From assembly GCF_003312875.1 (NCBI RefSeq), contig NZ_CP015163.1, forward strand, positions 7,936,001 to 8,000,000: 64,000 nucleotides of DNA, read 5' to 3'. The position numbers and the translations under genes were made by a program. Origin of the DNA: Amycolatopsis albispora. Lineage in GTDB: Bacteria > Actinomycetota > Actinomycetes > Mycobacteriales > Pseudonocardiaceae. This document shows positions 17,768 to 58,476 of the stretch, one piece after another. Numbering within the stretch: the first letter of the stretch is position 1; every line of letters starts with the position of its first letter. The notes under the pieces are model-generated. The model was given only the letters and a program-made list of their open reading frames with translations. It was not told where the DNA came from and did no database searches.

Positions 17768-17820
17768 GACACGAATGTGGCTTTCGGGGCCGAATACGCC
17801 CCGAAAGCCACATTCGTGTC
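17768..17820. repeat. ATGTGGCTTTCG palindrome (type A)
   Basis: Perfect long inverted repeat: left arm GACACGAATGTGG CTTTCGGGGC, loop CGAATAC, right arm its exact complement. It starts 18 bases beyond the stop of the HpaB-type gene, between convergent genes, and could act as a terminator. Confidence 0.9.
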
Positions 17821-17839
17821 CGCGCCGCGGCCCAGGTGA

Positions 17840-17894
17840 TGTCACGAAAGCCACATTCGAGACGCCAAACGTCCCGAAAGCCACATTCGTGACA
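17840..17894. repeat. ATGTGGCTTTCG repeat, direct-repeat form (type A)
   Basis: Ends are inverted (TGTCACGAAAG and TTCGTGACA), but CGAAAGCCACATTCG occurs twice in the same direction inside, so the centre is not palindromic. The same variant is at 1-44 and 40000-40054. Confidence 0.88.
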
Positions 17895-22597: not shown

Positions 22598-22650
22598 GTC
22601 ACGAATGTGGCTTTCGGGACGTTTGGCGTCTCGAAAGCCACATTCGTGAC
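22598..22650. repeat. ATGTGGCTTTCG palindrome (type A)
   Basis: GTCACGAATGTGGCTTTCG, GGACGTTTGGCGTCT, then CGAAAGCCACATTCGTGAC; the arms pair with a single mismatch. It ends 11 bases before the P450 stop, between convergent genes. Confidence 0.9.
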
Positions 22651-36402: not shown

Positions 36403-36469
36403 CGCCGATGTCACGAATGTGGCTTTCGAGACGTTTCGCGTCTCGAAAGCCACATTCGTGACATCGGCG
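36403..36469. repeat. ATGTGGCTTTCG palindrome (type A), perfect copy
   Basis: A 67-base inverted repeat with 31-base perfect arms (CGCCGATGTCACGAATG... then TGGCTTTCGAGACG) and the five-base loop TTTCG. It lies between the convergent oxidoreductase and dinB genes and could end both transcripts. Confidence 0.92.
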
Positions 36470-39999: not shown

Positions 40000-40054
40000 T
40001 GTCACGAATGTGGCTTTCGAGACGTTTGGCGTCCCGAATGTGGCTTTCGTGACA
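40000..40054. repeat. ATGTGGCTTTCG repeat, direct-repeat form (type A)
   Basis: TGTCACGAATGTGGCTTTCG, AGACGTTTGGCGTCC, then CGAATGTGGCTTTCGTGACA. The ends are inverted but the inner element is repeated directly. Confidence 0.9.
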
Positions 40055-40062
40055 TGGGCGGG

Positions 40063-40117
40063 GGACACGAATGTGGCTTTCGGGGCGTGATCGGCCCCCA
40101 AAGCCACATTCGTGTCC
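40063..40117. repeat. ATGTGGCTTTCG palindrome (type A)
   Basis: GGACACGAATGTGGCTTT-CGGGGC paired with GCCCCCAAAG-CCACATTCGTGTCC, near-perfect. It ends 18 bases before the stop of the carboxymuconolactone-decarboxylase-like gene. Confidence 0.9.
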
Positions 40118-57131: not shown

Positions 57132-57144
57132 AGGAACACGAATG
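57132..57144. repeat. left fragment of split ATGTGGCTTTCG palindrome
   Basis: AGGAACACGAATG. Joined to TGGCTTTCGGGGCG at 58433 it restores the left arm of a perfect palindrome ending at 58476. The IS110 insertion separates the halves. Confidence 0.9.
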
Positions 57145-57155
57145 AAGCTTCTATG

Positions 57156-58184
57156 TCAAGTGAGGTCGGTGGTGAGTGCTCGGTAGATGGTGTTGGCGAG
57201 GTGGCGTTTGAGGGCGCGGAGGGCGGCTTTGGTGGTGGCGTGGGGGTGGTGTTTGGTCCAGTTGTCGCGGTAGGTGCGGGCGGGTGGGTGGTGGGTGAGT
57301 TGGGTGATGGCGATGCGGTGGAGGCAGGTGTTGAGTTGGCGGTTGCCGCCGCGGTTGAGGCGGTAGTGGGGTTTGTTGGCTGTCCAGGTGGGGATGGGTG
57401 CGGTGCCGGTGTGCATGGCGTAGGCGGCGGGTGAGCGGAAGCGGGTGATGCCGGCGGTTTCGCCGATGATTTTCGCGGCGAGGACGGTGCTGACGCCGGT
57501 GATGGCCAGCAGGGTGGGGGCCAGGGGCTGGACTCGGGTGCGGAGTTGGTGTTCGAGCTGGGTGATCTGCTGGGTCAGGGTGGTGATCTCGGTGAGCAGG
57601 TCCAGGGCGAGGTCGCGGCGGACGCTGGCGGGCAGGGTGGACAGGGCGGTGGTGAGGGTGTGCTGGGCGCGGGGCCCGGTCAGGCGGGGGTGGGTCTGGT
57701 CCAGGGCGGGGTCGAGGTCGTGCAGGTGCCAGCGCAGTTGGTTGATGCTGGCGGTGCGGCGGTTGACCAGGTGTTCGCGCCGGTCGGAGAGCAGGCGCAG
57801 GTCCAGGGCGGTCTGGTCCAGGTGTGCGGTGGGCAGGTCGGGTTCGCGCAGGGCGGCGCGGGCGATGGCCAGGGCGTCGATCGGGTCGGATTTGCCGCGG
57901 GTGCGGGCGCTGGCGCGGCAGGCGGCCATCAGTTTGGGTGGGACCCAGACCACGGTGGCGCCGGTGCCGATCAGGGTGCGGACCAGTCGCCCGGCCACGC
58001 CGCGGCCGTCTTCGACCGCCCAGCGCGGCCCGGTGCCGAACTGGGTGGCCCAGGACCGCAGCCGCAGCAGCCCGTCGGGGTCGGCGGTCACGGTTTTCTG
58101 CCCCAGGCGGCGGCCGGTCTGATCGACCGCGACCGCGGTGTGGCTGGACTTGTGCGGATCGATGCCAATGACCACCATGGACAC
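57156..58184 (-). CDS. IS110-family transposase (DEDD recombinase)
   Basis: A 342-residue IS110 recombinase. N-terminal RuvC-like domain: GIDPHKSSHTA, AVEDGRGVAGR, KSDPIDALAIAR supply the DEDD acids. C-terminal Tnp20-like domain: GVSTVLAAKIIGE and RLNRGGNRQLN. In place of the Ser-Gly segment usual before that motif I read PTWTANK, so the catalytic Ser may be replaced by Thr; this needs an alignment. The GTG at 58184 has GGAAGG ten bases upstream. It should act with a bridge RNA encoded in the left end. Confidence 0.9.
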   Translation of the reverse strand: MSMVVIGIDPHKSSHTAVAVDQTGRRLGQKTVTADPDGLLRLRSWATQFGTGPRWAVEDGRGVAGRLVRTLIGTGATVVWVPPKLMAACRASARTRGKSDPIDALAIARAALREPDLPTAHLDQTALDLRLLSDRREHLVNRRTASINQLRWHLHDLDPALDQTHPRLTGPRAQHTLTTALSTLPASVRRDLALDLLTEITTLTQQITQLEHQLRTRVQPLAPTLLAITGVSTVLAAKIIGETAGITRFRSPAAYAMHTGTAPIPTWTANKPHYRLNRGGNRQLNTCLHRIAITQLTHHPPARTYRDNWTKHHPHATTKAALRALKRHLANTIYRALTTDLT

Positions 58185-58430
58185 CGCGTGTGTTCCTTCC
58201 CTAGCCGGAGAACATGCGTCTTTTCCGGGCCGGGCTGGTCGGACACACCTCAGTCGAGGTTGATGGCGTATGCCCACGCTTCTATCAAGTCAGGCCAGCC
58301 AGGCCCGGACCTTGATCACGCTGGACAATTCGTTCGCAAGCCAGCAACGGCAGTGGCTTTCAGAGTCACCACGCGATCAAGACCGGACCCTAACCGCCCA
58401 CCACGAGCGGCCACACCAACCCTGACACTG
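58185..58430 (-). ncRNA. predicted bridge RNA of the IS110 element
   Basis: The noncoding left end, read in transposase orientation, contains four guides in the order known for IS621 bridge RNA. Target loop: GAAAGCCACT (58361-58352, same as the left target) and ACGAAT (58333-58328, complementary to right target ATTCGT). Donor loop: ATAGAAGC (58285-58278, same as the element right end) and ACTGAG (58254-58249, complementary to core plus left end, CTCAGT). The RNA ends and folding were not computed. Confidence 0.75.
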
Positions 58431-58432
58431 AG

Positions 58433-58476
58433 TGGCTTTCGGGGCGAAATCCGCCCCGAAAGCCACATTCGTGTTC
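58433..58476. repeat. right fragment of split ATGTGGCTTTCG palindrome
   Basis: TGGCTTTCGGGGCG, loop AAATC, then CGCCCCGAAAGCCACATTCG-TGTTC. The last three bases before the protease stop codon follow at 58478. Confidence 0.92.

Follow-up and report, generated by a model that had tools for sequence, protein, structure and literature searches.

What directs an insertion sequence to one point of a repeat that its host carries hundreds of times, and how are the two DNAs joined there when the letters at the two junctions differ? This question is raised by a locus in the window (the whole stretch of 64,000 nucleotides of the Amycolatopsis albispora genome that was analysed), where an earlier note, made from the sequence alone, had described an IS110 element with a readable bridge RNA, apparently programmed for a dispersed host palindrome, and had explained the junction letters, CT and CA, as a tolerated mismatch in the core.

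The recombinase of the element contains both domains by which the IS110 group is recognised, namely the N-terminal DEDD_Tnp_IS110 (PF01548; 1.5e-28, 100 bits with a cut-off of 29) and the C-terminal Transposase_20 (PF02371; 3.9e-14, 53.2 bits with a cut-off of 21.3), which confirms the assignment to this group. The span first proposed, 57132-58476, takes in the target palindrome and was corrected to 57144-58431 (Table 1); it comprises a single gene on the minus strand and a left end, about 250 nt long, that is noncoding. The host genome (9.12 Mb, a single contig) contains eight copies, each of 1288 bp and with 0-3 differences from the window copy, and the feature in the window is a member of the IS110 group that was active recently. 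Among the closest protein relatives with a name, several come from Amycolatopsis. When the window was scanned with Rfam, no family reached its gathering score. Distant IS110-like genes of the same genome (L009-L013) gave partial matches with 28-32% identity; two of them, with equal scores, may represent a single element in two copies.

Table 1. Features of the element and of its insertion site, in window coordinates
Feature	Position	Strand	Basis
Whole IS110-group element, 1288 bp, T9 ... C8	57144..58431	-	Comparison of 8 copies and flanking palindrome
Recombinase gene, 340 aa; DEDD residues present; Thr (TWTAN) in place of the catalytic Ser	57156..58178	-	Pfam, alignment with IS621/ISCro4 chains, 223-sequence alignment
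Element right end ATAGAAGCTTC (left donor half)	57144..57154	-	Found in 8/8 copies
TTGACA, putative -35-like box, overlapping the stop codon	57154..57159	-	Sequence
CAGGGT, putative -10-like box	58419..58424	-	Script
Predicted bridge RNA region (ends approximate): 5' stem-loop, target-binding loop, donor-binding loop	58205..58412	-	RNAalifold with 20 relatives; single fold
Predicted left target guide GAAAGCCACT	58352..58361	-	Equals left junction at 8/8 sites; permutation test over relatives
Predicted right target guide CGAACG, homologous register	58331..58336	-	Alignment of relatives, permutation tests
Predicted handshake bases AA, which could pair with TT in the element right end (GCTTC)	58329..58330	-	Right-end pairing test
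Predicted left donor guide ATAGAAGC	58278..58285	-	Identical to right end 57147-57154
Predicted right donor guide ACTGAG, able to pair with CTCAGT of the left junction	58249..58254	-	Sequence
Larger part of the target palindrome, on the left side of the insertion as the element reads	58432..58476	+	Sequence, arm counts
GAACACGAAT, remainder of the interrupted palindrome arm	57134..57143	+	Sequence

All eight copies are inserted at the same point, between CGAAAGCCAC and ATTCG, and in one orientation. Their left junction reads CT and their right one CA, the letters that had been noticed in the window copy. The target is indeed the arm of a dispersed host palindrome: the 15-bp arm CGAAAGCCACATTCG occurs 646 times in the genome (327 + 319) and its reversed control 0 times, and 234 full palindromes have both exact arms. 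Those listed, a part of the total, are all 45 bp long, and their inner stems vary yet mostly stay paired. Removal of the element restores an intact palindrome in six of the eight copies. As to the other two, L003 lies in a palindrome with the inner 7 nt of one arm inverted and L006 in a lone arm; counting L003, seven copies are therefore within a palindrome, and the search for further copies that the earlier note had suggested gave none at an unrelated sequence. By analogy, this corresponds to the REP type of insertion, in a dispersed extragenic palindrome, with all eight copies at the arm. According to the accessible part of PMC1525189, ISPpu9, ISPpu10, ISPa11 and other REP-targeting insertion sequences are likewise specific for host repetitive extragenic palindromes; their hosts and repeats differ from those of the window element. 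REP-targeting IS110 elements are already known, and here the target is another host repeat. The titles found in the literature on such repeats in Amycolatopsis do not suggest this one.

The bridge RNA is encoded in the right end of IS1111 elements and in the long left end of IS110 elements. That predicted for the window element lies in the left end, where its four guides follow one another in the order of IS621, as had been read before; they are supported by permutation tests (target guides) and by the sequence of this element (donor guides), and the target guides spell the two halves of the target. With IS621 of E. coli the element shares, as far as the available portions of PMC11208160 and PMC11208158 go, the DEDD and Tnp domains, a left-end bridge RNA with target and donor loops, the order of the guides and the insertion in dispersed palindromes (REP). 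The ISEc21/seekRNA elements are also IS110-type, with an upstream noncoding RNA and without target duplication, but have other targets (PMC11187229, accessible text).

A consensus fold computed with RNAalifold from 20 aligned left ends has 42 pairs, 16 of which show changes on both sides, and consists of a 5' stem-loop, a long covarying stem that closes the target loop, and a donor hairpin. Since the donor stem hardly varies among the 20 left ends, it shows no covariation, which speaks neither for nor against it; the consensus also pairs a few donor-guide columns among themselves. The fold of the single sequence gave a z value of -2.44, with 1 of 200 shuffles as good, and its minimum-energy structure pairs 7 of the 10 left-guide bases, for which reason the fold alone is not decisive. 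The expectation that the guides lie in loops holds for the target guides in the consensus, where their columns are unpaired, and does not hold for most of the left target guide in the single fold. Also the right target guide of the earlier note, ACGAAT, was partly retained: this sequence exists and pairs fully with ATTCGT, but the relatives place the homologous guide, CGAACG, 3 nt to its 5' side. In this homologous register the base for target position 9 is mismatched to the target A, and judged from the window element by itself either register can pair; the relative L046, with the right guide UGAAUG plus AA against CATTCA, favours the homologous one. A handshake of the donor loop with the target, looked for by eye in the window element, does not hold.

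The agreement between guides and targets was determined across the relatives. The set comprised 103 loci, including the eight of the window genome. Three loci without a readable donor guide (L063, L074 and L078) were left out, as were 12 more without a readable left guide or flank, and the remaining 88 represent 78 distinct insertions. Because sites were pooled by the 16 bases that flank them on each side, the host's own eight copies count as five; L061 and L062 were merged as repeats of L045 and L046, and two 5'-truncated matches of the G070 element (L054 and L056) were excluded from the guide table. The left guide matched the left flank at 7.02 of 8 bases (offset of 0-2 allowed; 78 insertions, 48 guides) as compared to 3.88 with shuffled guides, the maximum of 2000 shuffles being 4.44. 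The right guide formed 4.57 of 5 pairs (G-U allowed; 76 insertions, 25 guides) as compared to 2.51, with a maximum of 3.15 in 2000 shuffles; in both tests the shuffling leaves the relatedness among elements in place. RNA-guided insertion of the element into the dispersed repeat is, in our judgement, very probable. In one of the relatives, L121 (from a Chloroflexi MAG), part of the left end is directly repeated.

The relatives do not all use palindromes. The right end could be read in 84 distinct insertions. Of these, 47 are placed exactly 2 nt upstream of a start codon (ATG in 40, GTG in 7), which in 41 of the 47 begins a frame that is 80 codons or longer or that is still open at the contig end. 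They belong to more distant relatives, with about 46-53% identity, and eight of them are found in the Amycolatopsis genomes G075, G069 and G028. At 38 of the 47 sites, or 38 of 44 if a readable left flank is required, TANNNT precedes the start codon by 5-8 nt, as compared to 0.45% of random points, whereas a -35 signal was sought at these sites and not found. Most guides of this class spell TAnnnT and NNCATG, and the targets resemble the region of the -10 box and start in leaderless genes; before the gene the element end, TAGGAG(A/C)AAC, would then set a ribosome-binding-like site. The class comprises L048-L050, L055, L057-L060 and many of L075-L139, mostly just after TANNNT; three Williamsia loci were taken out of it because their guides spell another target. 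IS900 of Mycobacterium avium subsp. paratuberculosis has also been reported to target translation initiation signals (Doran 1997, cited in the accessible text of PMC8141618); it is likened to the class by target alone, whereas the -10-like box and NNCATG are spelled by the relatives' own guides. A quick tree of 48 recombinases has five changes between start-codon and other targets, three of them forced by well-supported branches; without L087, classed as 'other' and having ATG one base further on, there are four changes, two of them forced. Judged from such trees, with two to five changes, the target class has changed more than once among the relatives.

How the ends are joined could be read from the junctions. 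T is the last base of the left junction in 75 of the 78 distinct insertions (the exceptions are L052, L053 and L070, the first two of which look mis-parsed), and the right junction keeps the element's base 8 (C in 69 and T in 7 of 76), followed by any target base. Empty sites were sought in relatives for the eight start-codon-class insertions of Amycolatopsis. In seven of them the joined flanks aligned to an empty site without gaps, and in six the five bases per side were letter-identical to it, with the target reading G/G, C/G, G/G, G/T, C/C and G/G at positions 8/9 beside the donor C/T. The seventh, L057, has G/A at the insertion and G/G in the empty-site relatives, and in four of the seven there is no base common to donor and target at these positions. 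The sole empty-site relative of L055 (76%) shows a 1-nt gap, and one of the two empty sites of L059 has an extra base. Insertion is therefore scarless for seven of the eight insertions tested in the relatives, and at the window locus by palindrome symmetry. Here, the search for empty sites in related strains, also proposed in the earlier note, yielded an element-free orthologous intergene in three congeners: G053 and G057 have the same pair of gyrase A-like and trypsin-like genes and a palindrome with drifted arms, and in G026 the same two genes enclose a palindrome whose arms are those seen in the window, set about 230 bp more distant from the gyrase gene. Since the arms in G053 and G057 have diverged, the exact empty letters rest on palindrome symmetry and the many copies.

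In the relatives with empty sites the point of exchange falls between positions 8 and 9, irrespective of any base being shared there. A shared dinucleotide core is therefore not the rule of this clade, and the explanation of CA as a tolerated core mismatch was abandoned. The exchange, as read from these alignments, appears to take place one base earlier than in IS621, whose top strands are cut after the shared CT (PMC11208158, accessible text). An ordinary IS621 mechanism with a CT core, in which CA would be a mismatch due to drift after insertion or to mismatch repair, is nevertheless an alternative that must be weighed. In its favour, L044 and L045 lie in a full CT target with T in the host repeat arms, and CT is read in 14 of the 76 targets. 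Nevertheless, both bases at positions 8 and 9 are shared with the donor in only 11 of the 76, one in 42 and none in 23; the same CT/CA mosaic is present in all eight copies of the window genome; the empty sites confirm targets reading G/G, C/G, G/T and C/C beside a donor C/T; and exchange of the dinucleotide 8-9 should yield either both target bases or CT, unlike the mosaic of a left T (75 of 78 insertions) and a right element base 8. We consider this alternative unlikely. A staggered cut repaired always from one strand could give the same junctions.

The guides point to another way of joining. Guide base 9 agrees with the target base (0.92 as compared to 0.41 for shuffled guides; 26 elements, p <= 2e-4), although it is unpaired with the target in 19 of 76 insertions, and it could pair with the donor T in just 9 of the 26 elements. 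Guide base 8 is paired in 76 of 76 insertions (1.0 as compared to 0.94, p 0.029), but being nearly constant its pairing says little. This base and the next three pair with the element right end at all four positions in 60 of the 76 insertions, at three in 15 and at two in 1; across 28 elements the mean is 3.64 of 4 as compared to 2.42 in shuffles, the largest of which gave 3.18, and the window element itself pairs at three of the four. Considering that the guide pairs with target base 9 as well as with the element right end, the complementarity of the predicted target loop spans the joined right junction and takes in 3-4 bases from the end of the element itself. Because the loop continues into these bases it would act as a splint, and coreless exchange with such a splint is, in our judgement, rather likely.

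The promoter of IS110-group elements is re-formed across their joined ends. Joining the ends of the window element in a circle would bring TTGACA and CAGGGT to a spacing of 17 nt, and the bridge RNA would be transcribed from the promoter so formed. Its target loop would hold the chromosomal arm and its donor loop the circle junction, bringing the two together. The target loop would read about five target bases and then, with the following 3-4 bases, capture the incoming donor strand in an extended 'handshake'; the recombinase would then swap the strands between positions 8 and 9, a step that in the relatives appears to need no core common to both DNAs, and leave a scarless insertion. In IS621, pairing of the handshake with the incoming strand promotes exchange (PMC11208158, accessible portion). 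According to the same partly available descriptions, its handshake has 2 nt, as compared to 3-4 nt here counting base 8, and its CT core is matched in target, donor and all four guides, whereas the window element has CA in the target and CT in the donor in 8/8 copies; the common core that marks the IS621 subtype is therefore absent from it. By analogy, the clade looks like a natural, longer version of the IS621 handshake. In the published search for element boundaries the cores were defined as repeats near the element ends, with CT prioritised (PMC11208160, available text), and we infer that coreless elements could therefore have been passed over. The accessible text on the ISEc21/seekRNA elements (PMC11187229) contains no statement on junction bases that are not shared.

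The recombinase differs from IS621 also at the active site, where the catalytic Ser of IS621 is replaced by Thr. Alignment with the IS621/ISCro4 chains, counting a 2-residue chain offset, places the Thr of TWTAN at S241 of IS621, and the DEDD residues are kept in the alignment of 223 sequences. All eight genome copies have Thr instead of the highly conserved catalytic serine of the group; the element is considered a variant within IS110 because domain and RNA features are those of the group and the nucleophile is altered. The position is occupied by S in 94, T in 24 and C in 1 of 120 homologous proteins, the window's included, with one gap, and by S in 89, T in 12 and A in 2 of the 103 loci. 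The two with Ala, L070 and L071 of Pseudonocardia dioxanivorans, are perhaps inactive or moved in trans. The same might be said of the Thr copies, that is, that they are dead and were mobilised by another recombinase, considering that mutation of S241 abolishes recombination by IS621 (PMC11208158, accessible part). This seems improbable to us: Thr is present in all eight spread copies and recurs in distant relatives, and the genome has no other close relative of the recombinase, the next matches being partial. For this last reason the Thr enzyme most likely moved the eight copies, and it seems probable that Thr is the covalent nucleophile. The word 'threonine' does not occur at all in the searchable text of the three main IS110 papers, and neither coreless junctions nor a Thr nucleophile are described in the IS110 literature searched, a set that lies mostly outside the subscription papers.

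Joining these parts, the window element would belong to an actinobacterial clade without a homologous core, with an extended-handshake splint, a Thr nucleophile and an architecture reprogrammed repeatedly between targets. We regard this joint reading as evenly poised between being right and being wrong, and with the same reserve its targets would include both dispersed terminator-like repeats and the -10 box plus start codon. Bridge recombinases are under development as programmable DNA-joining tools, for which the shared core is one constraint; if the reading is true, a natural clade often without a common core would make the role of core identity versus handshake pairing directly testable.

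A further alternative is recognition by the recombinase of the palindrome's hairpin shape, in which case the guide matches would be incidental. Detectable inverted repeats are indeed present at 15 of 35 non-start-codon loci examined, as compared to 0 of 47 start-codon loci. However, at the latter the guides match nonetheless, and two of the eight copies of the window genome (in the lone arm and in the arm with the inverted middle) lie outside a regular palindrome and yet at the same sequence point, which makes recognition of shape very improbable. That insertion was random and copies survived just in terminators, other insertions being harmful, deserves practically no credence, since, even though convergent or tandem genes flank 14 of the 15 repeats examined (of the 15 calls, 7 are weak), all eight copies are at one base position and in one orientation, and eight independent hits on 646 arm points have a chance of about 2.5e-36.

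The setting of the repeats was analysed with gene orientations called by a codon-usage score. Of the 15 palindromes, seven have convergent, seven tandem and one divergent gene neighbours, the divergent call being among the seven weak ones, and the eight insertions lie in five convergent and three tandem settings, with weak calls for L003, L007 and L008. These orientations fit host repeats of a terminator-like or REP-like nature. The window's arm was found in 10 of 80 genomes of the genus, with most occurrences in G000 (646), G026 (132) and G057 (43), and a variant arm with T at position 9 in 27 of 80. The 81%-identical relatives L044 (in G060) and L045 (in G023) sit in this variant arm, which their hosts contain 137 and 281 times, respectively, whereas the window's arm is absent from both. 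In these three genomes, guide and host repeat therefore go together.

Further copies of the 45-bp palindrome family are present in the window at 23-166, 17772-17889, 22602-22646, 36414-36458 and 40005-40112. Arm variants differ among congeners, as in the gyrase-trypsin intergene of G053 and G057, whose palindromes have other arms, and the arms look as if they had evolved in concert. At 17845-17889 and 40005-40049 of the window, and in L003, both arms of the palindrome point the same way. One arm of these variants has its inner 7 nt, which lie between CGAA and TTCG, in inverted order, and this would resemble the outcome of loop inversion in a small hairpin.
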